DNA of 64,000 bases. It comes from Deltaproteobacteria bacterium (GTDB lineage: Bacteria > CG2-30-53-67). Position 1 is the stretch's first letter. The number at the start of each line of letters is the position of its first letter. Below, piece by piece: positions 24,598 through 54,716 of the stretch. The stretch lies in contig JAADIO010000016.1 of the NCBI GenBank assembly GCA_013151235.1, positions 1 to 64,000 of the forward strand. Reading direction: 5' to 3'. The translations under genes and the position numbers were made by a program. The notes beneath the pieces were generated by a model. The model was not told where the DNA came from, ran no database searches, and saw nothing but the letters and a program-made list of their open reading frames with translations.

Positions 24598-24630
24598 ACA
24601 TCAAATGGTGTCACACATCAAATGGTGTCA
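24598..24630 (+). repeat. 17-base tandem duplication beside REP R3
   Basis: The unit ACATCAAATGGTGTCAC occurs twice in a row, and the second copy runs directly into the R3 palindrome. It looks like slippage or recombination at the RAYT element's edge. Confidence 0.75.
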
Positions 24631-24650
24631 GGCCCTGACAAATGATATAA
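24626..24650 (+). repeat. RAYT-associated REP sequence R3
   Basis: TGTCAGGCCCTGACA (24626-24640) is a perfect 7 bp inverted repeat around one base, followed by AATGATATAA. It overlaps the 3' end of the transposase gene and encodes the last residues (FVRA). With R4 it bounds the transposase gene. Confidence 0.85.
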
Positions 24651-25596: not shown

Positions 25597-25616
25597 GAAA
25601 TTAATATACCCGCAAA

Positions 25617-25641
25617 TTATGTCATTTGTCAAGGCCTGACA
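25617..25641 (-). repeat. RAYT-associated REP sequence R4
   Basis: Inverted copy of R3: TTATGTCATT followed by TGTCAAGGCCTGACA (25627-25641). It lies just upstream of the transposase start. R3 and R4 form a convergent pair about 1 kb apart enclosing the gene. Confidence 0.85.
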
Positions 25642-25685
25642 CCCAAGCTTTGTGACACCCAAGCTTTGTGACACCCAAGCTTTGC
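25638..25685 (+). repeat. 16-base tandem repeat, three units
   Basis: GACACCCAAGCTTTGT occurs three times without gaps; the last base of the third unit is changed. The first unit overlaps REP R4. It mirrors the tandem duplication on the other side of the transposase. Confidence 0.85.
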
Positions 25686-26880: not shown

Positions 26881-26928
26881 CCATATTCCAATCCCAAGCC
26901 TGACTTGAAAATCGGTGGAGAGAAAAAA

Positions 26929-27648
26929 ATGATGAAGAGAATCCATCCGTTGGAATTTAATGATATCGAATTCATAAAACAACAGAACAGGTTCCATCTT
27001 TTTTATATCCCGATGATTATTGTGCTGACCATTTATTCATCGAATTCTTTTGCAACGCCCATCGATCCGCCTCCTCATTTGAAAATTATGAATGACAGCC
27101 CAGGATTCTTTGAAGCAGAAATAGACGGAATGATGTCAGGTGCTACGTGGTCCTCGCAAGGTCCATCAACTCAAAACGGCAACATTACCATTTCTGTTTG
27201 GGAATATCTTATACCTGTGGTGGGAGTCAAGTGGCATGCTTGGGGCCAGTTGGAGAAAGTTATATATCGGGATATGTCGGATAGTAATGCTTATCCTGAA
27301 TTCACTTATAATCTGTTTCTCTATGGAAGGCATATGGTTGCGCTTCACAACAATGAAACTGCACCGAACACGAATATATTAGCAACCTATTTTCTAAACT
27401 TAAGAGGAATTTCAAGCAGTCCCTCATTACAAAAAGACAAAGATAGCGTGTTGCACCCTCACATTCCACATAACGACTCAATGCAATTAACTGTTTACGA
27501 TATGGACGATGAAAGCCCAAGTTATCTTTGGCCGGACGGATCAATTTTCAGTGTCGTAAAAATGTATCACACTCCGGAACCATGTTCCATTCTACTTTTT
27601 GGTTCTGGAATTTCTATTTTATTTAGGTTTGTCAGAAAGAAAGGCTGA
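26929..27648 (+). CDS. Second PEP-CTERM-type exported protein
   Basis: A 239-residue protein, 48 bases after the first and probably co-transcribed. A hydrophobic segment FYIPMIIVLTIYSSNSFA near residue 30-45 acts as signal sequence. The rest is an unrecognised beta-rich domain. It ends TPEPCSILLFGSGISILFRF plus VRKKG, a PEP-CTERM signal with Cys where Ser is usual. The base composition is clearly lower in GC than the neighbours, consistent with acquisition. Start chosen at ATG 26929 behind GGTGGAGAG. Confidence 0.75.
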   Translation: MMKRIHPLEFNDIEFIKQQNRFHLFYIPMIIVLTIYSSNSFATPIDPPPHLKIMNDSPGFFEAEIDGMMSGATWSSQGPSTQNGNITISVWEYLIPVVGVKWHAWGQLEKVIYRDMSDSNAYPEFTYNLFLYGRHMVALHNNETAPNTNILATYFLNLRGISSSPSLQKDKDSVLHPHIPHNDSMQLTVYDMDDESPSYLWPDGSIFSVVKMYHTPEPCSILLFGSGISILFRFVRKKG

Positions 27649-27798: not shown

Positions 27799-29592
27799 TC
27801 ACAACCCCATCCCCATCTCGATATAGCCGCAGGGGCAGGTATACGAACAGATATGACAGCCGTTGCAACGGGTGTAGTCGGTAAACATCACCTGTCCCAT
27901 GGGCCGGGAGAAATCGTGACGGATGGCATGGCGGGGGCAATAGATCCGGCACTGACCGCAGCTCATGCAGAGCCCGCAGCTCATGCAACGTCCGGCCTCG
28001 GCCACGGCGTCCTCCGGAGCCAATGTCCCGAAGATCTCCTGGAAGCCGTTGACCCGGTCGGAAACGTTTTGTGCCGGCGGCTCGTGACGCGGGGCATCGG
28101 GATAGTAATCGAGGCGAAGATCTCTTTCCCGGATGGGCCGCACCTTCGGCAGGGGACGGTACTCCCGGCCATGAAGATAGGCATCGATCGCCAGGGCCGC
28201 TTTCCGCCCTTCCCCCACGGAACGGGTGGAGATCCCCAGACCGAGGACATCGCCGCCGGCAAAGACCCCTTCGACATTCGTCTCTCCGTTCTTCCGGACC
28301 TCTCCCCAGCCCCATTCGTTTGCCAGTCCCTTCATGTCCCCGGCAAAATCGGGAAGTTGACCGATCCCGGAGATCACGGCCGTGGCCTCGATAAAGAACT
28401 CCGATCCTTCCACGGGCAGGGGGCGCCGCCGGCCGGATGAATCGGGCTCGCCCAATTCCATACGGATGCATCGGACCCCGGCCACACGGTGATTCTTCAC
28501 TTCAATTTCAACGGGAGCGGCCAGAAATTCGATCCGCACCCCTTCCTTTTCCGCCGCAACGATCTCTTCTTCGATGGCCGGCATCTCGGCACCGGTACGC
28601 CGGTAGAGGATCGTCACCTCGGCGCCGCCTTGCCGTCTCGAGACGCGGGCCGAATCGAGCACACTCTGGGCCGATTCGGTATCAAACTGTTCCTCCTCAC
28701 CGGAATCCTTGTGCGCCATCCGGAGGGAGACGTCGATGGCGCTGTTTCCGCCACCGATGACGACCACCTTGTTTCCAAGGTCGATCTCGACTCCCGAATT
28801 GATCCGGTTGAGGTAGTCGGCCGCGGCAAAGACATGGGAGGCATCCTCGCCGGGGATATTGAGCGCCACGCCCCGATGGGCGCCGATCGCCACATAGAGG
28901 GCATCGTATTCACTGCGAAGCTCCCGGAAAGGGAGGTCGACGCCGACCTTGACGTTGGAGCGGAGATTGACCCCCAGGTCGAGAATTTTCCGGATCTCGC
29001 CGTCGAGGACCTCCTCCGGGAGCCGGTAGGAGGGGACGCCGTAACGGAGCATTCCGCCCGGTTTTTCATAGGCATCAAAGAGGGTGACGGGGTAGCCGCG
29101 CCGGACCAGTTGGTAGGCGCAGGAAAGTCCCGAGGGCCCGGCGCCGATCACGGCCACGCTCTGCGGTTTCACTTCCTCCGTCAGTTTCCGTAACGGAAGT
29201 CCCCGTGCGAGGCCGTGGTCCCCGACCGCACGTTCAAAGGCGTTGATCGCCACGGCGCCGTCGGCCTTGTGCTGCCGGTTGCACCCCTTTTCACAGGGAT
29301 GGGGGCAGATCCGTCCATGTACGGCGGGCAGGGGATTCTTGTCCGTCAGTATGTACCAGGCCTCATCCAGGGCCTCATCGACGGGTTTTTTTTGATATTC
29401 CGCACGTGCCACCACGGTAAGATACCCCCGGATATCTTCACTGCTCGGGCATTCCGCCCGGCAGGGGGGCAGTTTCCGTACATAGACGGGGCACTTCCAG
29501 CTTTCACCGCTGGTGACCACCATCTCCGAGGGGGAGGCCTTTTTGTTTTGAATGATTTCAAGGTCCCGGCAAAAAACAGATTCTGCGCCCAT
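27799..29592 (-). CDS. dsrL: DsrL-type NAD(P)H:acceptor oxidoreductase (iron-sulfur flavoprotein)
   Basis: A 597-residue relative of the glutamate synthase small subunit. The N-terminal Fe-S region has CRAECPSSEDI and CPHPCEKGC. FAD and NAD(P) folds follow (VIGAGPSGLSCAYQL and VIGGGNSAIDVSLR), and the C-terminus carries two 4Fe-4S motifs (CGLCMSCGQCRIYCP region and CNGCHICSYTCP). In sulfur oxidisers DsrL passes electrons between DsrAB and NAD(H). Here it directly follows dsrB by 13 bases, which is the main reason for the name; a generic GltD-like oxidoreductase is the alternative. Start 29592 has GGAGGGG nine bases upstream. Confidence 0.8.
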   Translation of the reverse strand: MGAESVFCRDLEIIQNKKASPSEMVVTSGESWKCPVYVRKLPPCRAECPSSEDIRGYLTVVARAEYQKKPVDEALDEAWYILTDKNPLPAVHGRICPHPCEKGCNRQHKADGAVAINAFERAVGDHGLARGLPLRKLTEEVKPQSVAVIGAGPSGLSCAYQLVRRGYPVTLFDAYEKPGGMLRYGVPSYRLPEEVLDGEIRKILDLGVNLRSNVKVGVDLPFRELRSEYDALYVAIGAHRGVALNIPGEDASHVFAAADYLNRINSGVEIDLGNKVVVIGGGNSAIDVSLRMAHKDSGEEEQFDTESAQSVLDSARVSRRQGGAEVTILYRRTGAEMPAIEEEIVAAEKEGVRIEFLAAPVEIEVKNHRVAGVRCIRMELGEPDSSGRRRPLPVEGSEFFIEATAVISGIGQLPDFAGDMKGLANEWGWGEVRKNGETNVEGVFAGGDVLGLGISTRSVGEGRKAALAIDAYLHGREYRPLPKVRPIRERDLRLDYYPDAPRHEPPAQNVSDRVNGFQEIFGTLAPEDAVAEAGRCMSCGLCMSCGQCRIYCPRHAIRHDFSRPMGQVMFTDYTRCNGCHICSYTCPCGYIEMGMGL

Positions 29593-29605
29593 GGTCATTC
29601 CCCTC

Positions 29606-30682
29606 CTATAAGCGGACCTGCGAGGACGTGTTGAAGGTCGTCCGGGCAAAGCGGTAATTATCGATATGGTACTTGGTGAAGGGAAAACCGGTAACCTCGA
29701 AGAACCGCTTCCAGCCGACCCGGTCGATCCACTCGCCGACCCGCTCGTAGGGCTTCGCACCCGCCTTGTAGGCATCGAGGATCCTGCAGACCGCCTCGCT
29801 CACCTCCGGCCACCGGGGGGGATTGTTGGGGAGCCCGTAGGTGGCGAGTTTCATGAAGGAAGGTCCGCTCCGGGTACTCGCCGACTTGCCGCCGACCCAG
29901 ATCGAGAGCGTATCGGCCTCGGCATCACGGATCTCCATGCTCGGACACTGTCCGTGACAGGCCCCGCAGTACATGCACTTCTCTTCGATCACCTCCAGGG
30001 AGTCCCGGCCTTCCACCCTGCGCGGCCGGACCGCCGCAACGGGGCAGATCGCCACCACCTTGGGAAGCTCACAGATCTGCATCTTTCCGTGATCGATCTT
30101 CGGCGGTTTGTGGTGCTGCAGATTGATGGCGATATCCGACTGCCCGCCGCAGTTGATCTGGCAGCAGGAGGTGGAGATCTTGACGCGTTGGGGCAGGCGC
30201 TCGTTCACGAAGTCCTCATAGAGGGTATCCATGAGTGCCTTGACGGCGCCGGCCGCATCGGTTCCGGGGAGGTTGCAGTGCAGCCATCCCTGGGTATGGA
30301 TCACATTGGAGATGGACGGTCCGGTCCCCCCCACGGGGAAACCGAGAATGTCGCGGACCTCCCGGATCAGGGGATCGATATCCTCCTCGCGGGCCAGGAG
30401 AAACTCGATGTTGCACCGGCTGGTGAAGCGCAGATGCCCCTGGCAGTATTTGTCCGCAATCGTACAGATCTTCCGGACCGTATCCACACTCATGGTTCGG
30501 GGGGATCCCGCCCGGACCGTGTAGAGGGCATCCCCGCTTTCCGCCACATGGACCAGCACACCGGGGCGGAGACGCTCATGATACTTCCACTTGCCGTAGT
30601 TTTTGGCCATGAGGGGATGGAGAAACTTCTTGAACTCGGGCGCCCCGTTATCCCGGGGTGCCGTCTTTTTTGTGGTGGTCAT
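29606..30682 (-). CDS. dsrB: Dissimilatory sulfite reductase beta subunit
   Basis: The 358-residue beta subunit of the cytoplasmic sulfite reductase. Conserved parts include HLRFTSRCNIEFLL, the Cys pairs that bind the siroheme-coupled 4Fe-4S cluster (STSCCQINCGGQSDIAI), and a ferredoxin insertion CMYCGACHGQCP. It starts 16 bases after dsrA with GGAGG in front of the ATG. The operon lacks the dsrD gene that usually follows dsrB in sulfate reducers. Confidence 0.96.
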   Translation of the reverse strand: MTTTKKTAPRDNGAPEFKKFLHPLMAKNYGKWKYHERLRPGVLVHVAESGDALYTVRAGSPRTMSVDTVRKICTIADKYCQGHLRFTSRCNIEFLLAREEDIDPLIREVRDILGFPVGGTGPSISNVIHTQGWLHCNLPGTDAAGAVKALMDTLYEDFVNERLPQRVKISTSCCQINCGGQSDIAINLQHHKPPKIDHGKMQICELPKVVAICPVAAVRPRRVEGRDSLEVIEEKCMYCGACHGQCPSMEIRDAEADTLSIWVGGKSASTRSGPSFMKLATYGLPNNPPRWPEVSEAVCRILDAYKAGAKPYERVGEWIDRVGWKRFFEVTGFPFTKYHIDNYRFARTTFNTSSQVRL

Positions 30683-30698
30683 CGTTGATCCTCCCGCG

Positions 30699-31976
30699 CT
30701 ATGAGATGGTCTCTTCGCCGTCCGGCTCCTTGTTCAAAACAGACGGGGCCTTTTTTTCCTCTCCCGCCATCCTCGGCCGCGTGTACTCTTCGAATTTGAT
30801 ATAAGGGTTGCTGCGCGGCTGATTGACCATCTGCGGATCCGGTTCCAGGCCGATGCCGTCGAGGAAGGTCCCCAGTCCGACCCGGTCGATGAATTCGCCG
30901 ACCCGTTCGTGTTCCATCCCATGCTCCCCCCAGAAGTCCCAGATTCTCCGGACGAGGTCGGTCAGTCTTTCCCAATCCTCCTCGCTCTCCATCTTCATGA
31001 AGGGGACCAGCACCGAACTCATGGTATCCCCGATCTTCAGGCTGCGCTTGCCGCCGATCAGGATCGTCACCCCCCGGTCACGTCCGATCGACAGGGCCCT
31101 GTGCATCACGTTGATACAGTGCATGCAATGGACACAGTTGTCGTCGTCGATTATGATTTTCCGGTCCTTCAGGGTCATACATTGGGTGGGACAGCGTGCA
31201 ATCACCGTATTCATCACCGAGCGTTCTCCCCGCTCGTCAATAAACCTGGCGACCTCTTCCTGGTCCACCTGGATGCCGTCGCGCCAGGTCCCGATGATCG
31301 GCATGTCGGAGCGCTGCATGGAACAGGCACAGTCGTTGGCGCAGCCGGAGAGCTTGAACTTGTACTTGTAGGGGAATTCGGGACGATGAAGTTCGCTGAT
31401 AAAGGTATCGGTAATGTACTTGGTCAGACCGAGGGTATCAAAGCAGGACATCTCGCACCGGGCGGGTCCGACGCAGCAGGCGAGCGTCCGCATGGCCGCG
31501 CCCGAACCGCCGAGGTCCCAGCCCTTCTCCATGAGTTCCTCGCCTGCTTCAAAGGTCTGCTCATTGTCGGAACCAAGCATCAGGATGTCACCGGTCATGC
31601 CGTGGAACTGGAGGATCCCGGCGCTGTGTTTCTCGCTGATATCGCAGAGTTCCCGAAGGGCCGCAGTCGAATAGACCCAGGCCGAAGGTTCAAGAATCCG
31701 GATCGTGTTGAACCGGGCCATGGCCGGGAACTTGTCCACCACGTCCGAGTATCGGCCGATCACCCCGCCGCCGTATCCGTCGAGATTGATCACCGTCCCG
31801 AGCCAGTGATCGGTGCGCGTCTCGTAGGACTCTTCCAGTTGCCCCAGAAGCTGTTTCACGGCCGGCTTCTTTTCGGACAAGTCCTTCAGGTCCGTCACGA
31901 AACTCGGCCACGGGCCTTTTTCCAATTCGTCCAGCAAAGGCGTTTGGATCTCTTCGGGCTCTTTTGTGTCAGACAT
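30699..31976 (-). CDS. dsrA: Dissimilatory sulfite reductase alpha subunit
   Basis: The 425-residue alpha subunit that reduces sulfite (or, in reverse, oxidises sulfide-level sulfur) with siroheme. Key features are the cluster-binding Cys set CCVGPARCEMSCFDT and CANDCACSMQRSD, plus the ferredoxin domain RCPTQCM and CVHCMHCINVMH. The ATG at 31976 has GAAGGGG about seven bases upstream. It is the first gene of dsrA-dsrB-dsrL, behind an AT-rich leader with a CRP/FNR-type palindrome. dsrC, dsrMKJOP, sat and apr are not in the window. Confidence 0.97.
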   Translation of the reverse strand: MSDTKEPEEIQTPLLDELEKGPWPSFVTDLKDLSEKKPAVKQLLGQLEESYETRTDHWLGTVINLDGYGGGVIGRYSDVVDKFPAMARFNTIRILEPSAWVYSTAALRELCDISEKHSAGILQFHGMTGDILMLGSDNEQTFEAGEELMEKGWDLGGSGAAMRTLACCVGPARCEMSCFDTLGLTKYITDTFISELHRPEFPYKYKFKLSGCANDCACSMQRSDMPIIGTWRDGIQVDQEEVARFIDERGERSVMNTVIARCPTQCMTLKDRKIIIDDDNCVHCMHCINVMHRALSIGRDRGVTILIGGKRSLKIGDTMSSVLVPFMKMESEEDWERLTDLVRRIWDFWGEHGMEHERVGEFIDRVGLGTFLDGIGLEPDPQMVNQPRSNPYIKFEEYTRPRMAGEEKKAPSVLNKEPDGEETIS

Positions 31977-32118
31977 CACTCACCCCTTCCTTCTTTCCGG
32001 AACCGCTTCACGGATGTGATTTGCATCGCCGGCAAACAAAACTGCGGATCATGGTTTCTCAATCAATAGAAATAGACCAGCATTCATTCAAACATTACTA
32101 TATCTCAATATATTTTAT

Positions 32119-36406: not shown

Positions 36407-37129
36407 TCAGCGGCCCCGCTTGCGCACAACGGCAAACAATCCGGCCAGTCCGCCTGAGAGGAGCAGGAGAGAGGATGGTTCCGGAACGGGGGAATAACGA
36501 TAAGATGTCAATTCCGGGATCTCGTTATCCGTCCCCTCCAGGAGGGTTCCCGTATTCCCCAGATAAAGACCCGTGAAGAGATCGTTATCATAAGAATCAT
36601 AGTCGGCAAACCGGAAATTCCAGTCGATCGTTCCGTTCTGGTAAAGAATCATCTCAAAATTGTTTAAATAAAAACAACCTTCATCTTCATAAGTCTCCGT
36701 CAGATAATCAAAGATCACGCGGTCGGACAGCGAGTCATCATATCCGTACGCCCCGTAATCATAAGACGACAGATCATCATATGCCGCCAGTAGGTAGGTC
36801 GCGGAAGAATTATCAGCAATCAGATCGTCGACATTGCCATAGCCATAGCCTGTCGGTGTTTCCGTCCAGGAGAGCAGCTCCACGTAACCGTTCGAGTCCA
36901 TGTCGAAGGCGTCGAATGTTTTCCCTCCAAGGGTTACGGGAAAGGGAAGCGCAATCTTTCCGGAAGAATTGTCATCCGCGGAATCGGTCCATGTCAGATC
37001 GGGTCTCTGCCAGTTGTAGGCCGTTTCGGAAATGGTGCCGTCGACGGTATAGGCTTCGACGGCTCCTGCATACAGTCCCGTCGCGAAGAACAGGGAAATA
37101 AGCCATAACAACATCATAAACTTTCTCAT
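36407..37129 (-). CDS. PEP-CTERM sorted exported protein, Asp/Tyr-rich
   Basis: A 240-residue secreted protein. Its signal sequence is MMLLWLISLFFATGLYAGA. The mature part is unusually rich in Asp, Tyr and Ser, with repeats such as YDDLSSYDYGAYGYDDSLSD, and is predicted to be beta-rich and acidic. The C-terminal signal is VPEPSSLLLLSGGLAGLFAV then VRKRGR. It is a textbook exosortase substrate, probably a matrix or surface protein. No clear -24/-12 promoter was found in the 480 bp upstream. Confidence 0.9.
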   Translation of the reverse strand: MRKFMMLLWLISLFFATGLYAGAVEAYTVDGTISETAYNWQRPDLTWTDSADDNSSGKIALPFPVTLGGKTFDAFDMDSNGYVELLSWTETPTGYGYGNVDDLIADNSSATYLLAAYDDLSSYDYGAYGYDDSLSDRVIFDYLTETYEDEGCFYLNNFEMILYQNGTIDWNFRFADYDSYDNDLFTGLYLGNTGTLLEGTDNEIPELTSYRYSPVPEPSSLLLLSGGLAGLFAVVRKRGR

Positions 37130-44102: not shown

Positions 44103-44156
44103 GAAGAGGGGTAAGTTCCCGATGCAATCCCATGGCGGGTGGAGCGATTCTTCCGG

Positions 44157-46172
44157 ATGAAGAAAAAAAATAAGCCGGGCGACCAGTGGACGATCTATGA
44201 TCTCGATCTTTTCGCCTTCGAGAAGATCCTGAAAAAGGCCTCCATCGGCCTCGGTCAGACCCTTTTTCTGCTTGATACGGAGGGGTTCTTCCTGACAGCC
44301 CCCCCCCCGGAACGACCGCCCTTTTGCAAGTATGTCCTGGACCACAAGGAAGGGAGCTTCCGTTGCCGGGAGAGCATGGCCAAAGGGCACAAACGGGTCA
44401 TGGAGGAGGGAAAGTCCTCCATCTTCTCCTGCCATGCGGGGATGGTCAAGGTCACGGCGCCGGTGTGGGTCGACAACCGGATTGTGGCGGTTCTGAACGG
44501 CTGTACCAGTACTCTCCTTCATGATGGCAGTCCTTTTCCACAGAACAAGTTCCGACGCAGTATCCGGGAACTGGACATCCCGGGAACAATCTTCGGGCAG
44601 ATCCGGACGGTTTCCAAGGAACAGGTAACGGCAACCCTTGATCTTCTCGTAGCGATTGCCAACCTGATTGCCGAGACGTCGGCGGAAAATCTTCGGACCC
44701 TCCATCAGGTCGAAGAGGCGACGAAACATATCAAGCATCAGAATGAGCGATTGATCGCTCTCTATGATTTGAACCAGATCCTTCAGAGTCCGTTGTCGCT
44801 CGATGAAAAATTGCTCGTGATCCTCACCTCTCTGACGGCCAACGAAGGGTTCGGGTTCAACCGGGCCATGCTGCTCCTCTTGAATGAAAACATGACCTGC
44901 CTCGAGGGGAAAATGGGGGTCGGACCCTCCAGCCGGAAGGAGGCTCTTTCCGTCAAAAGGCGGCGGACCTACGGGATGGATGAAAGATCCTTTTACGAGA
45001 AAATCCGCCGGCAGGAAATCCGTGTTGGAGAGGAGGACGCCTCCTTTGATGATCTGGCCCGGTCTCTTTCCTTCTCTACCCGGGACAAATCGGTCTACCC
45101 CGTAGCCGCCCTTTTTGGAAAGGGCCCTGTCATCTTACAGAGCCGGGGGGAACGGAAGGTCCCCATAGATCCGGCCTTGAAAAAGGTCCTGGGCAAGACC
45201 CGCAGTTTTCTGGCCATTCCCCTCATTGAACATGAAAGCCCCATCGGCGTGATCCTCACCGACAACCGTTTTTCCGGACGGGCGGTCGGAAAGGACACCC
45301 TCCAGATCCTCAGTGTATTCGCCAACCAGGCGGCGACGGCCATTTCCAATTCAAAACTCTATTCAATCCTGCAGGAGAAGATCTTCCAGTTAGCCGAATC
45401 GAACCGTCAGTTGCACAAGGTGCACTCCCGGATGATGCAGATGGAACGATTTTCCATCATGGGGTCCGTGGCGGCCGGGGTCGCCCATGAAATCAAAAAC
45501 CCCCTGAATGCCATTGTGATCTATCTGGAATTGCTGAAAAAGGAGATTGCCAAGGAGAAGCCGGAAAAAAGCAGGATTTCCGAGAAGCTCAATGTGGTGG
45601 AACAGGAGATCGAACGCCTCTCCGATATGGCAACGGAATTTCTCTCCTACAGCAGCGTGGAGCAGTTGGAAATGAGCCCCATCGATATCAGGATCCTCCT
45701 GCAGCAGGTCCTCCGTTTTATCGGATATCAGGCGAAGGAACAGAATGTGACCATCAAAAAGTCTTTTGCCCGCTCCCTGCCGGAGATCTCCGTCAACCAT
45801 AAACAGATGAAACAGGTTTTCATCAATATTATTTTGAATGCCCTGCAGGCCATGCCGGAACGGGGGGAACTTACCGTCTCGCTGAAAAAGGCTGTCCCAA
45901 AGCCCGGCTGTTTGCAGATTACCTTTGCCGATAACGGGAACGGGATTGCCCCGGAAGTCCGGGAGCATATCTTTGAACCCTTTTACACCACCCGGAAAGG
46001 GGGAACCGGGCTGGGACTCTCCTTTGTGGACAAGGTCCTCAAGGAGCACGGCGGCGAAGTCGAGATTCAAAGTGCACCGAAAAAAGGGACCCGGGTGATT
46101 CTCTATCTTCCTCTGACGGCGCAGGGCTACGGCAGGGTCGATGTCCGGGAGCGAAAAACCACCCCGTTGTAA
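44157..46172 (+). CDS. PocR-GAF sensor histidine kinase
   Basis: A 671-residue cytoplasmic kinase with no membrane helix. Residues about 15-170 form a PocR-type ligand domain with a conserved Cys/His set (PFCKYVLDH, SFRCRESMAKGH and SIFSCHAGM), possibly redox or metal sensitive. A GAF domain follows (about 205-390), then a HisKA dimerisation helix with the phosphorylated His in GVAHEIKNPLN (about H445), and a HATPase domain with NALQAM, DNGNGI and GGTGLGLSFV. A GTG at 44139 is an alternative start. No response regulator is adjacent; the EPS operon is downstream. Confidence 0.9.
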   Translation: MKKKNKPGDQWTIYDLDLFAFEKILKKASIGLGQTLFLLDTEGFFLTAPPPERPPFCKYVLDHKEGSFRCRESMAKGHKRVMEEGKSSIFSCHAGMVKVTAPVWVDNRIVAVLNGCTSTLLHDGSPFPQNKFRRSIRELDIPGTIFGQIRTVSKEQVTATLDLLVAIANLIAETSAENLRTLHQVEEATKHIKHQNERLIALYDLNQILQSPLSLDEKLLVILTSLTANEGFGFNRAMLLLLNENMTCLEGKMGVGPSSRKEALSVKRRRTYGMDERSFYEKIRRQEIRVGEEDASFDDLARSLSFSTRDKSVYPVAALFGKGPVILQSRGERKVPIDPALKKVLGKTRSFLAIPLIEHESPIGVILTDNRFSGRAVGKDTLQILSVFANQAATAISNSKLYSILQEKIFQLAESNRQLHKVHSRMMQMERFSIMGSVAAGVAHEIKNPLNAIVIYLELLKKEIAKEKPEKSRISEKLNVVEQEIERLSDMATEFLSYSSVEQLEMSPIDIRILLQQVLRFIGYQAKEQNVTIKKSFARSLPEISVNHKQMKQVFINIILNALQAMPERGELTVSLKKAVPKPGCLQITFADNGNGIAPEVREHIFEPFYTTRKGGTGLGLSFVDKVLKEHGGEVEIQSAPKKGTRVILYLPLTAQGYGRVDVRERKTTPL

Positions 46173-46183
46173 TTTTTGATGGT

Positions 46184-46398
46184 GTCGTAAAAAGTCACGA
46201 AGCCCTTCGACCCTTCGGCCGGCTCAGGAGAGCCTTGCTCAGGGCGAATGGTGTAAGTTATTGATATTCCGTTCTTGTGGTTCGGCAAGCTTCCGAGCAT
46301 GGTGAGCTTGCCGAACCACATGCTCGGAAAGTTTAATGGACCGTTCGTGGTGAGACTGTCGAACCATGAACGGAATCCGGAAAACGACTTTTTACGAC
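46184..46398. repeat. Family III palindromic element, 215 bp
   Basis: Bounded by perfect 13-base inverted repeats GTCGTAAAAAGTC (46184-46196) and GACTTTTTACGAC (46386-46398), resembling the ends of family II. Inside is a perfect 15 bp stem GTGGTTCGGCAAGCT/AGCTTGCCGAACCAC (46277-46291 with 46305-46319). CCGAGCAT in its loop (46293-46300) pairs with ATGCTCGG just outside (46320-46327), so two folds compete. A further stem CCGTTCGTGGT/AACCATGAACGG follows. It starts 11 bases after the kinase stop codon. Confidence 0.75.
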
Positions 46399-46429
46399 TT
46401 TATCATTTTTAATCCACGGGTATTTTTCA

Positions 46430-46494: not shown

Positions 46495-48030
46495 ATGACA
46501 AACCAGACAAATACAGACATCAAGATATACTATTATTTGTTCCTGAGAAACCGGACACTCTTTTTCAGCCTTTTTGTGGCGGTGTTTACAACGGTCTCCC
46601 TGAGCAGCCTTTTCTTCCCCAAGGTCTATGAATCGACTACGGTGATCCGAGCACAGAAGGAACAGCCCAATCCGATCGGAACCGGGAAACTGGTCCGGGA
46701 AGACCCGAGGTCGAACCTGAAAACCCTGGAAGAGATGATACTGAGCCGGACTTCGCTGAATCGTGCCATCAAGGAGATGAAACTGGACGGGGATATTGCC
46801 TCGGTTGAGCAGAGAGAACGTCTCTTGATGTCGGTCCGGAAGCGGGTCAAGATCCGCAGTATCGGAGCGGGTCTTTTTTCCATTGCCTTTCAGGATCATG
46901 ATCCCGAAGGGGCGATGCGTTTTACGCAGACCCTGTCGTCCATCTTTATTGAAGAAAGCCTTGCGCTCAAGCGAAATGAGGCATATTCTTCCGTCGGCTT
47001 TATCAAGAAACAGAAGGATTTATACAAAAAAAAGCTTCAGGCGTCCGAAGAAGCATTGAGGAAGTTCAAACTGGCCCACATTGATGAAATGCCTGGAAAA
47101 GAGAATGCCAGCCTGGTCCAGCTTCAGCGTCTGCGCGATACGCTGGCCTCGACCTCGCTGGAGTTGCAGGAGGACATTCAAAAAAAAGAGCTGATTGCGA
47201 AACAGTTGTCCGGTGAAAAACCGATGGTGGTCTCCATGATGAGCGGAGGGGCGACTTCAACGGTAGACAAGATCAAGGTTCTGCAATTCCAGCTAAGTCA
47301 GCTCCTGGCGAATTATACGGAAAAACACCCTGATGTGATCCGGATTCGTTCGGAAATTGAAAAGCTAAAAAAGGAGGGAAGTGTCCCGGGGGCGAAGAGT
47401 GGACCGGGTCTCCCTCGGTCCGACGAATTTACGACGCTGAATCCGTTGCACCAGAAACTGAAGGAGAATCTGAATAACATCGAGATCAGTATCGGGACGC
47501 TGAAACACAAGGAGCAAATCCTGAAGGGAGAGATCCGGGAACTTGAAAAGAAGGTGCGGAGCATTCCGAATCGTGAAAAAGAACTCGTGGGACTTCAGCG
47601 GGATTATAATGTTAATGAAAAGATCTACCAGATGCTCCTGATGAAACTGCAGGAGGCTCGAATCTCAAAGGCGCTCGAAGTGAATCAGGGAGGAACCCGG
47701 TTCGAGGTTGTCGATCCGCCGAATCTTCCCGTTTTCCCGGTAAAACCGAACCTGCTCCATTTTCTTCTCGCGGGCCTGGCGCTGGGATGTGCCGCCGGCG
47801 CCGGCTCCATTTTTCTCAAGGACTATTTCAATTCATCGACCTGGGGGGTCCGTGAAGCCGAAGAGGTTTTTGGTCTGCCGGTTCTGGCGGCCGTCCCGGT
47901 GATTGAAACAGAGGAGAGTCTGCGAAAGAAAAAACACCGGCGGATCCAGTGGATCCTGGGTTCTTTTTTGTTCCTGCTCTGTGTTGCGGGGACAATCGCC
48001 TTTGCCGTTTTCCATGTGTCAATCCGATGA
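46495..48030 (+). CDS. Wzz-type polysaccharide chain-length determinant (PEP-CTERM/EPS locus type)
   Basis: A 511-residue inner-membrane protein that sets chain length in Wzx/Wzy-type export. Transmembrane helices lie at about 22-42 (LFFSLFVAVFTTVSLSSLFF) and about 420-440 (LLHFLLAGLALGCAAGAGSI). An additional hydrophobic segment is near the C-terminus (WILGSFLFLLCVAGTIAFAV). Between them lies a long periplasmic coiled coil and the Pro/Gly-rich PPNLPVFPVKPN before the second helix. Related to the EPS-locus family seen beside PEP-CTERM systems. First gene of the operon. Confidence 0.9.
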   Translation: MTNQTNTDIKIYYYLFLRNRTLFFSLFVAVFTTVSLSSLFFPKVYESTTVIRAQKEQPNPIGTGKLVREDPRSNLKTLEEMILSRTSLNRAIKEMKLDGDIASVEQRERLLMSVRKRVKIRSIGAGLFSIAFQDHDPEGAMRFTQTLSSIFIEESLALKRNEAYSSVGFIKKQKDLYKKKLQASEEALRKFKLAHIDEMPGKENASLVQLQRLRDTLASTSLELQEDIQKKELIAKQLSGEKPMVVSMMSGGATSTVDKIKVLQFQLSQLLANYTEKHPDVIRIRSEIEKLKKEGSVPGAKSGPGLPRSDEFTTLNPLHQKLKENLNNIEISIGTLKHKEQILKGEIRELEKKVRSIPNREKELVGLQRDYNVNEKIYQMLLMKLQEARISKALEVNQGGTRFEVVDPPNLPVFPVKPNLLHFLLAGLALGCAAGAGSIFLKDYFNSSTWGVREAEEVFGLPVLAAVPVIETEESLRKKKHRRIQWILGSFLFLLCVAGTIAFAVFHVSIR

Positions 48031-48069: not shown

Positions 48070-50139
48070 ATGTATACTGCATTTTACGGATTCAAAGAAA
48101 AACCCTTCAAACTTGTACCGGATCCCCGTTTTCTCTATATGAGCGAAGCACATAAGACGGCTCTGAGTCATCTACAATACGGGATCGAGGACCGGAACGG
48201 TTTCGTTGTCATTACCGGGGAGGTGGGGTCCGGCAAGACCCTCCTGCTCCGGGTCCTGATGAACAGTCTGCCGGCGAGCACTCAGGTGGCCCGCGTCATC
48301 AACACGAATTTCAATGCGCAGGAGTTGCTTGAGCATGTCCTCAATGAATTCGGTGTGGAGGTGGAGAGTCGGAAAACAAAACCCCAGCTACTCTCCATGC
48401 TGACGCGTGTTCTGCTGACGGCCTTCGCTGAGAAAAAAGAAGCGATCCTGGTGATTGATGAGGCTCAGAATCTCAGTATCAATGCCCTGGAAGAGTTGCG
48501 GATGATCTCGAATCTTGAGACCAACACGGAAAAGCTGGTGCAGATCGTCATGGTCGGACAGCCGCAGCTTCGACACAAACTGAATCTCCCCATATTAGAG
48601 CAGCTGAAACAGCGGATCACCGTACAGTATCATCTCGGTCCGCTAAACGAACAGGAGTGTGCAGGCTATGTGAACCATCGGCTCAAAGTTGCCGGGGGGG
48701 CGCCGATGGATCTTTTTGCTCCGGAAGCACTGAAGCTCATTTATGACTATGCCGGAGGCATCCCGAGGTTGATCAATGTCATCTCGGATGCTGCACTCCG
48801 CTTAGGCTATGTGGAAGGAACGAAGAGGCTGGATGAAAAGCTCCTCCACAGTGTCATGGAAGAGTTGCAGGAGATCGGTGATGGAGCGCCGCGGGCAGCA
48901 ACGCAGCCTCGACAGGTGATGACGACGGTACTGGATCAGAATGCCGTGGAACTGAACAGAAAGTTTCAGGACCTCTACAACCGGATGCAGTCCGTCTATG
49001 CCGGGAAGGGAGAGGAGAGTCTGCTCCTTTATGAACAGTTGTTGAATGTTGAAAAGGAGCAGGACCCGAAGAAGCAGGCCACATTAAAGGCGCGGGAGGA
49101 GATGCTCTTTTCCCGGGAACAGGAGATCCACCGGAAACTCCTTGAGGTTTCCACCCGCCTCAACGAGGTCAATGCCGTCAAAGAAAGTCTGGAAGAGAAA
49201 AAGATCGAGATTCAGAACAAGGTCCTGGAAGTTGATCAGCAACTTCGCAGGATGCGGGAATGGAAGTCGGAAATGTCTTCCTCCTCTGCGGCCGGGTCGG
49301 CCGATCAGCTCCTGAAGCAGAAAATGGAAGCGTTGGAAGGCATCCAGCAACGTCTGCAGGAACGAGAAACCGACCTGAACGATAAGATGGAAGAACTGCG
49401 AAGTATCCTCCAGGAGCTGGAGCAGAAAAAGGTCCTTCTGGACCACCTGGGAAGCGAAAGGCCGATGGAGGAGCGTTTGAAGGACCTGGAGAAACAGCAG
49501 GCCCTGGTACGCCGGAAGGCGGAGGAGCTAATGAGCCGGCTGGGATTTCTCGAAAAGGAGATCCGGACGGAACGAAAGGAAAAAGCACAGGGGCCGCCCC
49601 CCGGGGGTTCCTCCTCAAACATGCAGGGTATACAGGATCAGGAGTTTCGGAAAGACCTGATTCATCGTGTGGAACGGTTGAAGTCCGATATTGATACTCT
49701 CGGTTTTCAGAAAAAGCTTTTTCATGCTTCAACGGAAAAAGACGACAAAATTCAGTCCCGACTGGAAAAAATCGAACGGCAATTTTCTTCTCTTCAGAAA
49801 AAGGAGGAACGCCTGCTGAGCAAGATTGAGAATATCCAGGAGAGTTCACGGCTTTTAGAGAACAAGACATTCGCCGTCGACGAGATGACGGAAAAGGTAA
49901 CCCGGCGGGACAGACTGCTGGAAAAGAAGCTCGGTGAGTTGTACAACCTGATTTTGGCGATGGAGAGAAAGGACCCGCTCTTTCCGGCCCAAGAGGTCCG
50001 GTCGGCCTTACCCGTTTTGGCGGGGGAGGACGGGGTTGAAAGGACGGCTGGGCTGTCCGGAGCCGAACCCGCCGGAAAGGCTTCGGCGCCGGGCCGACGG
50101 TTCAATATGCTCATCCGTGAAATTTTGAAAGGATCGTAA
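48070..50139 (+). CDS. ExeA-like AAA ATPase with a long coiled-coil tail (EPS-locus type)
   Basis: A 689-residue protein. Residues 1-270 are an ExeA/GspA-like AAA ATPase (MYTAFYGFKEKPFKLVPDP), Walker A GEVGSGKTLLLR (about 50) and Walker B AILVIDEAQNLS. ATPases of this type are found in PEP-CTERM EPS loci. From about 300 to 630 the chain is nearly all heptad-rich coiled coil with Glu/Lys/Gln (for example KEERLLSKIENIQESSRLLE), about 2.5 times the normal family length. No membrane helix is seen. It may act as a scaffold for the secretion complex. Confidence 0.85.
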   Translation: MYTAFYGFKEKPFKLVPDPRFLYMSEAHKTALSHLQYGIEDRNGFVVITGEVGSGKTLLLRVLMNSLPASTQVARVINTNFNAQELLEHVLNEFGVEVESRKTKPQLLSMLTRVLLTAFAEKKEAILVIDEAQNLSINALEELRMISNLETNTEKLVQIVMVGQPQLRHKLNLPILEQLKQRITVQYHLGPLNEQECAGYVNHRLKVAGGAPMDLFAPEALKLIYDYAGGIPRLINVISDAALRLGYVEGTKRLDEKLLHSVMEELQEIGDGAPRAATQPRQVMTTVLDQNAVELNRKFQDLYNRMQSVYAGKGEESLLLYEQLLNVEKEQDPKKQATLKAREEMLFSREQEIHRKLLEVSTRLNEVNAVKESLEEKKIEIQNKVLEVDQQLRRMREWKSEMSSSSAAGSADQLLKQKMEALEGIQQRLQERETDLNDKMEELRSILQELEQKKVLLDHLGSERPMEERLKDLEKQQALVRRKAEELMSRLGFLEKEIRTERKEKAQGPPPGGSSSNMQGIQDQEFRKDLIHRVERLKSDIDTLGFQKKLFHASTEKDDKIQSRLEKIERQFSSLQKKEERLLSKIENIQESSRLLENKTFAVDEMTEKVTRRDRLLEKKLGELYNLILAMERKDPLFPAQEVRSALPVLAGEDGVERTAGLSGAEPAGKASAPGRRFNMLIREILKGS

Positions 50140-50187
50140 GCAATTGCCCCGGGGATGCCCCGGTGGGTGGAGAGAACAGAGGTTGTA

Positions 50188-51813
50188 ATGGAAATTCAAG
50201 GATTGCTTCAGGATGTGTCGGTTTCGGCACTTCTCCTGCAGGCGGAATCGGAAGAACAAACGGGTGTCCTCTATCTGAAAGGAGAGGGGATGATCGGTGA
50301 AGTGGCTTTTGAAAACGGACGGATCTATGCGGCCGCTTCTCCTTTTGTCCGGGAACGGATCGGACAGCGGTTGATTCTCGAAGGGGTCATCCGTCCCGCC
50401 GATCTCTATCAGGCACTGCAGGATCAGGAAAATCACCCCAAACATGCCTTGGGAGAACTTCTGGTGGAACGGGGACTCCTTCCTCCGGAACGTCTTCAGG
50501 AGTTCCTGACCTTCCAGATCGAAGAAGCCGTCCTCCATCTCGCCATGTGGCAAAAGGGGCGTTTTACTTTTGAACGGCGTTCCCGGCGAAAGAAGCATCC
50601 GGTGGGACTTTGTCCGGGTAAAATTCTGGAGCAGAAGGAACGTATGATGAAACTGAAAGAAGAACTCCCCCGCGGGGTGATGGAGTGGGTGGAAAAGTCT
50701 CCCGATTCATGCCTTTTCCACCGATTCCAGTCCGATATGGAAAGAACCTTCTCGCGGGCGGAACGGTTTGAGCCCCGGATTATCATTCTGCTGGTTGAAG
50801 GAGATTCGCGGATGCGGATGATGGTCCACGATGAACTGGTGAAACACAATTTCAGCATCAAGGGGGCCGGGAATGTCACGAAGGCCCGGGCACAGATTGA
50901 CCACCTGCTGGAACAGGGCTACAGCCCGATCGTGGTGACCGATGTTGATTTTCCGCACCGGAAAAAAGAGATGCAATTAGAAGGTCTCTCTTTCATGGAG
51001 ACCCTGCATCAGGAACATCCGGAGATTCCCATTCTGGTTTCCACCTCGTATCCAATTTCAAATCTGCGTAGAAAAATCCTCTTTTCAGGCGGGATCTTCT
51101 GCCTGGTGAAACCGGACCTGGACGTCCTTTCCTCTCGAAATTTTGAGCAGGTCTTCCAAGCCTATATCCGGGAGTTAGGATATTGCCTCGATCTCAGTAT
51201 CCAGCAATATTATCAGCAGTATTATCGGGAGCGGGCGGAGATCCTCCGCGATGATCTGATGGAAAATCTGATGAATGCCCGTGCGGAAATCAATCGTCTC
51301 GGGAGTCACTCGATTGAAGAGACAAAGATCCATGATCTCTACTACCGGGTGAGTGATCTACTGGTTCGGCAGGGGAATGTGGACCATGCCATTGAGGAGG
51401 TCCTGAAATTTTTGGCGGAGCGGTTCGACCATGTGGCCCTCTTTCTGTGGGGCAAGAAGTATCTGAATGGTTATCTGGGCCGGTCGAACCTCCGGGCGGA
51501 TTTCGGAGAGACGGTGGCCAAGGTCTCCGTGGAACACGGCCGGATCCCCTTTCTCGTCGGCCTGAACAAGAAAACTGTTTTTACCGGCCCACCGCCGGAA
51601 GAGGATTCCTACCGTGAGTTTCTGGATCGTTTTCTCCCGGCTCCCCCTTCCTGGCAGCTTCTCTATCCGTTGGAAGTTCTGGGAAAGGTCGTCGCCCTGT
51701 GGTATGCGGACCGGGAGCAGGGAGAGGCATCTCTTCAGGAGACCCGGGTGCTGGTCGCCCTGGTGAATCTGATTGCCCTCTCCTTGAAAATGGATATTGA
51801 AGGTGTCGCGTAA
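50188..51813 (+). CDS. PATAN (DUF4388) protein with receiver-like and GAF-like domains
   Basis: A 541-residue multidomain protein. The N-terminus is a PATAN/DUF4388 domain (MEIQGLLQDVSVSALLLQAE, then GVLYLKGEGMIGEVAFENGR). A receiver-like domain follows around 200-320 (IIILLVEGDSRMRMMVHDEL, VVTDVDFP, VSTSYPISNLRR) in which the usual acidic pocket is only partly kept. The C-terminus resembles a GAF domain (about 400-540). PATAN proteins act in gliding, motility or EPS control in other bacteria. ATG at 50188 has AGAGG upstream. Confidence 0.72.
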   Translation: MEIQGLLQDVSVSALLLQAESEEQTGVLYLKGEGMIGEVAFENGRIYAAASPFVRERIGQRLILEGVIRPADLYQALQDQENHPKHALGELLVERGLLPPERLQEFLTFQIEEAVLHLAMWQKGRFTFERRSRRKKHPVGLCPGKILEQKERMMKLKEELPRGVMEWVEKSPDSCLFHRFQSDMERTFSRAERFEPRIIILLVEGDSRMRMMVHDELVKHNFSIKGAGNVTKARAQIDHLLEQGYSPIVVTDVDFPHRKKEMQLEGLSFMETLHQEHPEIPILVSTSYPISNLRRKILFSGGIFCLVKPDLDVLSSRNFEQVFQAYIRELGYCLDLSIQQYYQQYYRERAEILRDDLMENLMNARAEINRLGSHSIEETKIHDLYYRVSDLLVRQGNVDHAIEEVLKFLAERFDHVALFLWGKKYLNGYLGRSNLRADFGETVAKVSVEHGRIPFLVGLNKKTVFTGPPPEEDSYREFLDRFLPAPPSWQLLYPLEVLGKVVALWYADREQGEASLQETRVLVALVNLIALSLKMDIEGVA

Positions 51814-51849: not shown

Positions 51850-53589
51850 GTGACGGAAAAAAATCAGAAACAGAAGATCGGCCAACTCCTGCGGGAGCTG
51901 AAAGTTGTCGACGAAGAGCAGCTTTCCCGTGCGCTGGAAGAGCAGAAACGAACCCGGGAACGGCTCGGTTCCGTCTTGATCAAGATGGGGTTTCTGACCT
52001 CGGAAGATCTCGACTATCTGTTGGCCCGGCAGTATAACGTTCCCTTCATCAGCCTGGAACAATACCGAATCGACACGCATGCGGCTCACCTCATTCCCGA
52101 AAAATACTGTCGGGAACACAACGTGGTCGCCGTGCAGCGGAACAAAAACCTCCTCAGCGTGGCCATGGCCAACCCACGAGACATTGTCGTGATCAATGAG
52201 CTTTCTTTTATTACCGGTCTTAAAATCGCTCCCGTGGTTAGTGCTGAAATCTCGATCCTCCGGACGATTGATGCTCTCTTTAAAAAGAAGGTCGTGGAAG
52301 AGACATCCCTGGACTGGGAGACGGAATTGTCCGCGAAGGAAGAGGTTGATATTGAAATCATCCGGAGCGAGGATGAACCGGCCGACATTGAAGACATTAT
52401 CTCCTCCTCAGAAGAGGCGCCCGTTGTCCGGTTGGTGAACCTGGTTCTTTTGGCGGCGCTCGACAAAAAGGCGACCCATGTTCATATCGAACCGCTTATG
52501 GACACGCTTCAGATCCGGCTTCGGATCGACGGAGTCCTGACGGAACTAACCACTCCGGCGAAAAAACACCACATCAATATCATCAACCGCTTGAAGATCT
52601 TAAGCACCCTGGATATTACGAAGCACAATCTTCCCCAGGAAAACTATTTTCAGATCCGGTCCCGGGGACGGTTCGTCGATGTCAAGGTGTCGACCTTTCC
52701 CACCCGTTACGGGGAGAGCATGGTCTTAAGTCTCCATGCCCAGTATCAGAAGACTCTCGATCTGGAATCTCTGGGGATGCATCCGGATGTTCTCCAGGCG
52801 TACAAACAACTGGTGAGCGCCAAACGGGGCTTTGTCTTGGTGGTGGGCCCCAACAACAGTGGGAAAACCTCCACGATTTATTCCACCTTGAATTATTTAA
52901 ACCAGCCGGAAAAGAGCCTCTATACCTTTGAGAACCCGATCAAGAACCTGATCGAAGGGATCTTCCAGGGACAGCCGAATGAAAAAGCGGGGTTTTCCTA
53001 TGCCGAGGGAGTTCGTGCCATCCTGGCCCAGGATCCCGACGTCATGATGTTGGGGGATATGAATCATGCCAAGGCGATTGGACACTCCCTTCAGTCCTCC
53101 CTCTCCCGCACCCTTGTGCTGGGACGGCTCAACTACAACGATGCGGCCGGTGCCGTTCTACACCTTCTCGATATGGGAATCCCTCCCTTCCTGATTTCCC
53201 AGGCGGTTACCGCCGTGTTGAGTCAACGGATGGTACGGCGAATTTGCCCCCACTGCTCGGAAAGTTATCTCCCTCCGGGAAAAATTATTGAAGAGATCAA
53301 AGATCATGCGGGAAGCAAGGAGGTCATCTTTTACCGTGGAAGCGGTTGCCGGGATTGTGGCGAGACCGGCTATCTGGGAACGGTCGGCATTTTCGAACTG
53401 GTCCGCATGAATGAGGAGATGCGTCGAATGGTACTGGAACGGGCCGGGCGGGATGAACTCCTTGCCGCCATTCGGCGGGCGGGGACCGTTACGCTCTATC
53501 GGGACGCTCTGCAGAAGGTTCTGAGCGGGCTCACCACCTATGAAGAGATCCTCAATATAGCGGATCTTGAAGGAATACGAAAAAAGTGA
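51850..53589 (+). CDS. GspE/PilB-like ATPase with MshEN domain and altered catalytic motifs
   Basis: A 579-residue type II secretion/type IV pilus-type ATPase. Residues 1-150 contain the paired MshEN repeats (KIGQLLRELKVVDEEQL and RLGSVLIKMGFLTSEDLDYLL), a known c-di-GMP-binding fold. Walker A is retained (VVGPNNSGKTSTIYS, about 333). The Walker B GEIRD block reads GDMNH (about 403), the TLHTNDA His box reads RLNYNDA, and the Asp-box RxxPQDG reads HNLPQEN. The tetra-Cys region CPHC and CRDCGETGY is intact. It probably binds nucleotide but may hydrolyse weakly. The GTG start has GAAGG upstream. Confidence 0.85.
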   Translation: MTEKNQKQKIGQLLRELKVVDEEQLSRALEEQKRTRERLGSVLIKMGFLTSEDLDYLLARQYNVPFISLEQYRIDTHAAHLIPEKYCREHNVVAVQRNKNLLSVAMANPRDIVVINELSFITGLKIAPVVSAEISILRTIDALFKKKVVEETSLDWETELSAKEEVDIEIIRSEDEPADIEDIISSSEEAPVVRLVNLVLLAALDKKATHVHIEPLMDTLQIRLRIDGVLTELTTPAKKHHINIINRLKILSTLDITKHNLPQENYFQIRSRGRFVDVKVSTFPTRYGESMVLSLHAQYQKTLDLESLGMHPDVLQAYKQLVSAKRGFVLVVGPNNSGKTSTIYSTLNYLNQPEKSLYTFENPIKNLIEGIFQGQPNEKAGFSYAEGVRAILAQDPDVMMLGDMNHAKAIGHSLQSSLSRTLVLGRLNYNDAAGAVLHLLDMGIPPFLISQAVTAVLSQRMVRRICPHCSESYLPPGKIIEEIKDHAGSKEVIFYRGSGCRDCGETGYLGTVGIFELVRMNEEMRRMVLERAGRDELLAAIRRAGTVTLYRDALQKVLSGLTTYEEILNIADLEGIRKK

Positions 53590-53601: not shown

Positions 53602-54423
53602 ATGCGGAGTATTGAAGAAGGATTGGAAAAGGCTCGACGGGAACGGAAGGGGACACAGGTCGAGGGGAATCATGCCTTCCTTCAGGAGTGGCAGGGACGG
53701 TCGATCGATCGATCAAAGTTGAGCGCCTATCTTGTTTCCCTCCTGGAACCGAAGTCTCTGGCTGCGGAACAGTTCAAACGTCTTCGTACTTTAATCCTTC
53801 GGAAAATGAAAAGCCGGATGGAAAATACGATTCTTGTGACAAGTGCCGTCCAGGGAGAAGGGAAGACCACGACGGCCCTGAATCTGGCGATCTCCGTCGC
53901 TCAGGGGATGAATGAAACAGTCCTCATGATCGATACTGATCTGCGAAAACCGGGGGTCCACACCCACCTGGGGATTGAGGCGGAGCGGGGACTCGTTGAT
54001 TACCTGCGGGAAGAGTGCGACCTGCCCGAACTTTTGGTCAAAACGGAAGTCCCCAAGTTGACGATCCTTCCCTCCGGTACACCTCCTGAAAACCCTTCCG
54101 AACTGCTGGCCTCCAACCGGATGAGTCAACTGCTGCGGGAGGTCAAGGGACGTTATGACAATCGGTTTGTCATCCTCGACACTTCTCCGATCAATGTTTT
54201 TACGGACACATCAATTCTGGCGCCCCAGGTGGAGGGGGTCCTCCTTGTGATCAAGGACGGCGAAACCCCCCGCGATTACGTACATCGTGCGATTATGCAA
54301 TTGGAGGGCACGAATCTTCTCGGGTTGATCCTGAATCAGTTCTCCGCGCCGGAATCCCTCAAGGATACCTATTACTATTATTATGATTATGATTACGATC
54401 GTTCGGACAAGTCCCGATCGTAA
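53602..54423 (+). CDS. BY-kinase (tyrosine autokinase of the EPS locus)
   Basis: A 273-residue bacterial tyrosine kinase that works with Wzz to control polysaccharide assembly. Walker A is SAVQGEGKTTTALNLA (about 81-96), Walker A' LMIDTDLRKPG and Walker B VILDTSPINV. The C-terminal tail is a cluster of seven Tyr residues (DTYYYYYDYDYDRSD), the usual autophosphorylation site. There is no transmembrane part, so it needs the Wzz protein five genes earlier as its activator. Last gene of the operon. Confidence 0.93.
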   Translation: MRSIEEGLEKARRERKGTQVEGNHAFLQEWQGRSIDRSKLSAYLVSLLEPKSLAAEQFKRLRTLILRKMKSRMENTILVTSAVQGEGKTTTALNLAISVAQGMNETVLMIDTDLRKPGVHTHLGIEAERGLVDYLREECDLPELLVKTEVPKLTILPSGTPPENPSELLASNRMSQLLREVKGRYDNRFVILDTSPINVFTDTSILAPQVEGVLLVIKDGETPRDYVHRAIMQLEGTNLLGLILNQFSAPESLKDTYYYYYDYDYDRSDKSRS

Positions 54424-54470: not shown

Positions 54471-54716
54471 TTAGAACCCCATTTGTTCTTTTCTGGCCAG
54501 AAGAATTTCCTCGTTTTCCTCGTGATCAGGGTCCGGCACACAGGCCTCAACGGGGCAGACCTCGGCACACTGGGACGCTTCATGAAATCCCTTGCATTCG
54601 ACGCATTTTTCCGGATCGATCACGTAGGTCGGGTCCCCCTCGGCAATGGCGCTGACGGGACAGACCGCTTCACATTCCCCACAGGCGACGCATTCATCGT
54701 TGATTCGATAGGCCAT
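54471..54716 (-). CDS. 2[4Fe-4S] ferredoxin (YfhL-type)
   Basis: An 81-residue low-potential electron carrier. Two cluster motifs are visible: CVACGECEAVCPVSAI and CVECKGFHEASQCAEVCP, the second with the enlarged loop typical of YfhL/Alvin-type ferredoxins. The C-terminus is acidic (PDPDHEENEEILLARK). It is monocistronic and convergent with the BY-kinase. The partner is not indicated by the context. Confidence 0.93.
   Translation of the reverse strand: MAYRINDECVACGECEAVCPVSAIAEGDPTYVIDPEKCVECKGFHEASQCAEVCPVEACVPDPDHEENEEILLARKEQMGF

Follow-up and report, generated by a model that had tools for sequence, protein, structure and literature searches.

The locus analyzed here raises the question of what a PilB/GspE-type protein with a degenerate ATPase active site does beside genes for polysaccharide chain-length control, outside any pil or gsp locus. 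Its gene lies in a window of 64,000 nucleotides (positions 1 to 64,000 of contig JAADIO010000016.1, assembly GCA_013151235.1), which is the whole stretch of DNA that was analyzed, and the product is called PilBx below. An earlier note on this DNA proposed that the protein is a secretion ATPase turned into a c-di-GMP-responsive regulator or assembly platform for polysaccharide export. Two features locate the gene and its zinc region.

51850..53589, + strand: PilBx open reading frame, GTG start, 579 amino acids, MshEN and T2SSE domains, degenerate ATPase active site
53245..53358, + strand: tetra-Cys zinc region (C466, C469, C500, C503), all four retained

By descent and by fold, PilBx is a member of the PilB/GspE clade. 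It matches the profiles MshEN (PF05157) and T2SSE (PF00437, 290 bits) above their cut-offs, with the full-length MshEN plus T2SSE span of PilB/GspE proteins, to which its identity is about 33-40%. Geobacter PilB (5ZFR/5TSG) aligns with it end to end over residues 6-571. An AlphaFold2 model built from 29 sequences reaches a mean pLDDT of 81, with low confidence only at the N terminus, in the linker between MshEN and N2D and in the last residues, and its best Foldseek matches are GspE, PilF and PilB with TM-target values up to 0.87. The zinc-region cysteines, listed as retained in the earlier note, are invariant in all five PilBx sequences and are likewise Cys in each of 56 other PilB/GspE proteins. 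PilBx nevertheless scores below the cut-offs of the PilB/GspE equivalog models, with 443.8 versus 675.65 bits for TIGR02538 and 435.4 versus 630.25 bits for TIGR02533.

Residue roles and numbering follow Geobacter PilB (Gm; PMC5424180) and were transferred through the alignment of PilBx with 5ZFR/5TSG; the numbering offset is considered correct because 12 of 12 named Gm residues land on the named letter. Five PilBx sequences were compared with those of 56 further PilB/GspE proteins, among them the three paralogues encoded in the same genome. The motif regions of PilBx are as follows.

52471..52494, + strand: N2D motif ATHVHIEP (canonical ASDIHIEP), residues 208-215, Asp replaced by H210
52621..52647, + strand: KHNLPQENY (canonical ERRLPQDGR), residues 258-266, Gm R257 replaced by Y266
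52684..52686, + strand: first arginine finger (role, PMC5424180), Gm R271 replaced by K279, 5/5
52729..52731, + strand: second arginine finger (role, PMC5424180), Gm R286 replaced by S294, 5/5
52846..52869, + strand: Walker A GPNNSGKT, residues 333-340, GKT core retained, Gm T327 replaced by N335
52921..52947, + strand: ASP box YTFENPIKN (canonical xTxEDPVEY), residues 358-366, Gm E357 replaced by K365
53041..53064, + strand: Walker B region VMMLGDMN (canonical IIMVGEIR), residues 398-405, catalytic Gm E395 replaced by D403
53101..53142, + strand: HIS box region LSRTLVLGRLNYND (canonical LTGHLVLSTLHTND), residues 418-431, T411 replaced by S419, H413 by T421 and H420 by N428

Eleven named Gm residues are replaced (R257, R271, R286, T327, E357, E395, D398, E400, T411, H413 and H420), ten of them in all five orthologues and D398 in four. 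At these positions the canonical residue is present in all 56 other proteins in most cases and in at least 53 in every case. Across the 76 columns that are identical in at least 55 of the 56, every PilBx has 25 changed and 48 kept. The catalytic Glu that follows Walker B in Geobacter PilB (Gm E395; PMC5424180) is Asp403 in all five PilBx proteins and Glu in all 56 others, and the same complete division is found at N2D position 210, with His in the former and Asp in the latter. Both HIS-box histidines are gone from all five (H413 to Thr and H420 to Asn). At the pore loop, D398 corresponds to H406, a variable position that is Asp in one orthologue, and the acidic E400 corresponds to K408, which is Lys in every PilBx. 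The Arg of the open/apo interface (Gm R455) is retained as R463 in four of five.

The motifs GDMNH, RLNYNDA and HNLPQEN, from which the earlier note argued, are all present in the translation, and the altered Walker B, ASP and HIS boxes are common to all five orthologues, each of them in a wzz/BY-kinase operon. The loss is larger than was claimed, since both arginine fingers, which had gone unmentioned, are replaced as well. Two of its statements on the active site need adjustment. The Walker A motif described as intact keeps its GKT core, with the Lys (K339) and the Thr invariant in all five, but the canonical GPTGSGKTT reads GPNNSGKTS, so that Asn takes the place of T327 and of the Gly after it. 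The ASP box is altered as stated; the box proper, however, is the change of EDPVE to ENPIK, in which the Glu that acts as Mg ligand in Geobacter PilB (Gm E357; PMC5424180) is Lys, or Asn in one orthologue, and Glu E361 is invariant. Judged from these residues, there is good support for a loss of motor chemistry, and PilBx very probably does not hydrolyze ATP.

An active enzyme would require that the site had been rebuilt, with Asp403 as the base and Lys279 and other residues in place of the arginines, and PilBx would then drive an export step, such as the passage of polymer or protein, in an XrtA-type system. The invariance of GKT and of E361, the fixation of most replacement residues among the five sequences, the strong selection, and a neighbouring gene for an ExeA-like ATPase, a T2SS-type helper, would all suit such an enzyme. 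It is an unlikely arrangement, because the Glu that binds Mg has been lost together with the two arginine fingers and the two histidines of the HIS box, there is no PilC-like platform to turn, and 20 other TIGR03007 loci contain no motor of this kind.

The extent of these changes at normally invariant residues also brings to mind a pseudogene or an assembly artefact. This explanation can be set aside with near certainty: the frame is open, identical changes occur in five independent assemblies, and dN/dS is about 0.06. The individual values for PilBx are 0.067 and 0.055 in the two closest genome pairs, in which the wzz, ExeA-like and PATAN genes give 0.10-0.16. Of the five further genomes in the family, four encode orthologues (G001 at 89%, G005 at 73%, G003 at 73% and G004 at 70%). 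In a phylogenetic tree the PilBx proteins form a fully supported clade, whose stem measures 1.73 changes per site and whose inner branches are short, and they are not nested among the T4P, T2SS or third-locus ATPases of the family. The branch lengths of this tree form the pattern of a phase of rapid change that gave way to constraint.

A search profile built from the five orthologues scores 1190-1233 bits against the family members that encode PilBx, whereas its matches in 381 further genomes do not exceed 489 bits, and the best of these carry canonical motifs. Searches at E <= 1e-145, with no internal positive control, likewise gave no PilBx in 399 genomes from a large phylum or in two small phyla. 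Altogether, about 790 other genomes are without PilBx. Within the sampled genomes, PilBx is by these profile scores specific to its family. The sixth family genome, G002, has neither wzz (TIGR03007) nor PilBx and retains a canonical PilB of T4P type.

The genes around PilBx indicate the process in which it may take part.

44139..46172, + strand: PocR/GAF sensor histidine kinase, upstream of wzz, kept with the operon in five genomes
46495..48030, + strand: wzz, XrtA-system polysaccharide chain length determinant (TIGR03007, 372 bits, above cut-off)
48070..50139, + strand: ExeA-like ATPase with a long C-terminal extension (TIGR03015, 308 bits, slightly below cut-off)
50155..51813, + strand: protein with DUF4388 (which we take to be the PATAN domain), an MshEN-type c-di-GMP motif, a receiver domain and an apparent GAF-like region, directly upstream of PilBx
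53602..54423, + strand: BY-kinase with a Tyr-rich tail (TIGR03018, 221 bits, slightly below cut-off; TIGR01007, above cut-off), 12 bases after PilBx

This order, from the PocR/GAF kinase through wzz, the ExeA-like ATPase, the PATAN/REC/GAF protein and PilBx to the BY-kinase, is found in five genomes, with the contig of G003 ending inside the BY-kinase gene. The intergenic gaps from wzz to the BY-kinase gene measure 12-39 bases, and these genes therefore probably form one operon. The earlier observation that PilBx lies between a PATAN protein and a BY-kinase, outside a pilus operon, applies to all five genomes. Its designation of the region as an EPS operon is accurate as regards wzz, the ExeA-like ATPase and the BY-kinase; no glycosyltransferase, Wza or Wzy gene is present in the operon, however, and the exosortase gene is on another contig. 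Homologues with canonical motifs in other EPS operons, which would have spoken against the proposed role, were not found: no PilB/GspE homologue lies near the 20 other TIGR03007 loci, which come from 18 genomes.

Other elements were noted around these genes. The gap between the histidine kinase gene and wzz contains nested inverted repeats (46267-46329; arms 46177-46196 and 46386-46405), to which a REP-associated-type transposase ORF at 24628-25674 may be related. A small ferredoxin-like ORF (54471-54716, - strand) is situated between the BY-kinase gene and a DUF1573 gene, and a similar one occurs near the operon of G005.

The same genome holds three canonical PilB/GspE loci, namely one for T4P on contig C55, one for the T2SS on C41 and, on C32, a third that is pilus-like. 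It encodes three PilC/GspF proteins, each beside one of these canonical ATPases, so none is left over in the genome for PilBx and none is encoded near it. With three motors available, and with inactive and active motors known to cooperate in PilT/PilU (PMC11656802), PilBx might regulate the pilus or T2SS motor of the same cell as one of its subunits, acting through mixed hexamers or competition for PilC, and its linkage to wzz would be incidental. The evidence makes this improbable, as PilBx is in no pil or gsp locus, G002 keeps its T4P PilB while lacking both PilBx and wzz, and the acidic pore-loop residue E400 is Lys in every PilBx.

The only exosortase gene of the genome is located on C32, outside the window contig. 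The third PilB/PilC locus on that contig (L057, 12209-16934), with its canonical ATPase, is about 2 kb from the exosortase gene, and in G001 a PilB of the same third-locus type is also near the exosortase gene (contig C50). A strict co-occurrence of exosortase and PilBx was considered and is ruled out by G002, which has an exosortase without PilBx, and by G003, which has PilBx without an exosortase. The window encodes secreted-looking proteins with PEP-CTERM-like C-termini at 26257-26880, 26905-27648 and 36407-37129, which fit the exosortase on C32. On contig C36, one frame (L059, 6883-8445) combines an MshEN-like start with a PilT-like ATPase domain, apart from pilus genes. Genes resembling dsrA and dsrB, followed by one for a DsrL-like oxidoreductase, were recognized by eye in the window at 27799-31979 (- strand), as were sat- and qmoC-like genes at another locus of the genome (L056), and from these genes the source organism may live by reducing sulfate or sulfite.

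Whether PilBx can receive a c-di-GMP signal depends on its MshEN domain, for which the receptor criterion is two 24-residue RLGxx...LxxxLxxQ repeats separated by a 5-residue spacer, according to the published consensus (PMC5013675).

51874..51945, + strand: MshEN c-di-GMP repeat 1, residues 9-32, KIGQLLRELKVVDEEQLSRALEEQ, with departures from the consensus at R9, L10 and G18
51961..52032, + strand: MshEN c-di-GMP repeat 2, residues 38-61, RLGSVLIKMGFLTSEDLDYLLARQ, key positions fit the published consensus

PilBx scores 60.3 bits with NF053729, above the cut-off of 38. The earlier statement that the repeats are kept is accurate for repeat 2, which is perfect at the key positions and almost invariant among the PilBx proteins, but repeat 1 deviates: across the orthologues R9 is Lys or Gln, L10 is Ile and G18 is Lys, Asn or Glu. 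The change at R9 affects the Arg that stacks on guanine, and Asn at G18 is also present in Geobacter PilB. The 13 GGDEF matches in the genome suggest that the cell makes c-di-GMP, and binding of this nucleotide by PilBx is plausible, although not assured.

A weakened repeat 1, along with a confidently predicted ATPase-domain fold, would also be expected of a pure scaffold, that is, a nucleotide-independent ring that organizes Wzz and the BY-kinase at the membrane and takes no part in c-di-GMP or PATAN signalling. Such a passive role appears doubtful in view of the invariant repeat 2 with its perfect key positions, the invariant Walker A Lys and Thr, and the co-encoded protein with MshEN, PATAN and REC parts. 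The EpsG BY-kinase model TIGR03029 offers a further connection, in that its N-terminal part matches the MshEN domain of PilBx and the rest matches the BY-kinase of the window. No fusion of MshEN to a BY-kinase was found in 386 genomes or at the 20 TIGR03007 loci, and the Rosetta-stone argument therefore draws on this model by itself.

PilBx is real, conserved and, in the sample, family-specific, and it is a candidate pseudo-ATPase derived from PilB, with its gene in a polysaccharide operon of XrtA type. It likely has a part in polysaccharide production, and this part is probably that of a regulator or scaffold and not that of a motor. On balance, PilBx appears to be a PilB/GspE paralogue that has lost hydrolysis and its work as a motor, and whose retained task is to relay signals to, or to act as a scaffold for, the polysaccharide machinery of Wzz and the BY-kinase. 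The residues for ATP hydrolysis, for holding Mg and for sensing the gamma-phosphate across the closed subunit interface are replaced and the replacements fixed, whereas the elements of the fold are retained along with the GKT core, the zinc cysteines and repeat 2. The protein would still assemble like PilB, as a predicted ring, and would rest in an open or apo-like form, perhaps with nucleotide bound and not split. In contrast to the K327A form of M. xanthus PilB (see below), PilBx keeps the Walker A Lys and has lost the Mg ligand and sensors, so its mimicry of the apo state is a prediction. The MshEN domain would receive the c-di-GMP input, and the PATAN/REC/GAF protein encoded upstream would feed in a second. 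The BY-kinase and Wzz would then receive the signal from PilBx, probably through contact, and chain elongation and export would in this way follow c-di-GMP and two-component signals. Contact of PilBx with the PATAN protein and the BY-kinase has close to an even chance of being correct. A more specific version, in which PilBx is a lineage-specific signalling pseudo-ATPase locked in the open/apo state, forming a c-di-GMP/PATAN-controlled ring that acts directly on the BY-kinase and Wzz, is put forward tentatively.

Several points count against the relay or scaffold reading: some activity can survive a catalytic Glu-to-Asp change, the first MshEN repeat is weakened, no fusion of MshEN to a BY-kinase is known from the 386 genomes, the exosortase does not track PilBx, and the operon contains no glycosyltransferases. 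The earlier proposal of a secretion ATPase turned into a c-di-GMP regulator or platform holds for an active site that is unfit for hydrolysis and conserved in a polysaccharide operon, while the proposed function draws on the genes nearby and on what is known from Myxococcus and Synechocystis. No earlier description of a PilBx-type protein was found in the open-access literature, subscription papers and preprints being outside the search. If the more specific version is correct, PilBx would be a new kind of unit controlling the export of polysaccharide. PilBx could serve to test whether the PilB fold alone can carry c-di-GMP and PATAN signals to a BY-kinase. It is also a warning that annotation as PilB/GspE by domain score need not mean a motor.

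Among known systems, PilBx shares the MshEN-N2D-CTD-Zn order and the fold of type IVa PilB (Geobacter 5TSG/5ZFR, Myxococcus and Thermus PilF) and differs in its replaced hydrolysis and closed-interface residues and in having no pil genes or PilC nearby. The M. xanthus protein is likewise of PilB type, bears MshEN and is linked to EPS independently of ATP hydrolysis: its ATPase-dead K327A form restores EPS without pili, the Walker B mutant E391A does not support EPS, and the nucleotide-free form has been proposed as the EPS-signalling state (PMC5544727). From the E391A result it follows that loss of hydrolysis alone is insufficient for EPS signalling. In M. xanthus one protein, which acts upstream of Dif, combines EPS signalling with the work of the pilus motor. 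PilBx, by contrast, is a paralogue of its own, by nature probably deficient in hydrolysis and encoded within the polysaccharide operon, and in its lineage the two roles look separated.

In Synechocystis, PATAN response regulators (PATAN-REC, PixG and others) bind PilB1 (PMC12288463), which makes the product of the upstream PATAN gene a natural partner of PilBx. Both cases pair a PATAN-REC protein with a PilB-type protein, but the Synechocystis pair steers pili and phototaxis, and the PilBx pair, whose interaction is putative, is co-encoded with wzz and a BY-kinase. Weak model matches of PilBx include NfrB, annotated as a c-di-GMP-activated glycosyltransferase, and EpsG (TIGR03029), in which MshEN is also linked to polysaccharide synthesis; there it is fused to the enzyme, while in PilBx it is carried on a separate PilB-like protein. 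Finally, the XrtA/PEP-CTERM cassette (TIGR03007, TIGR03015 and TIGR03018) has wzz, ExeA-like ATPase and BY-kinase genes of the same type, and the operon described here differs from it by the position of the PATAN and PilBx genes between those for the ExeA-like ATPase and the BY-kinase.
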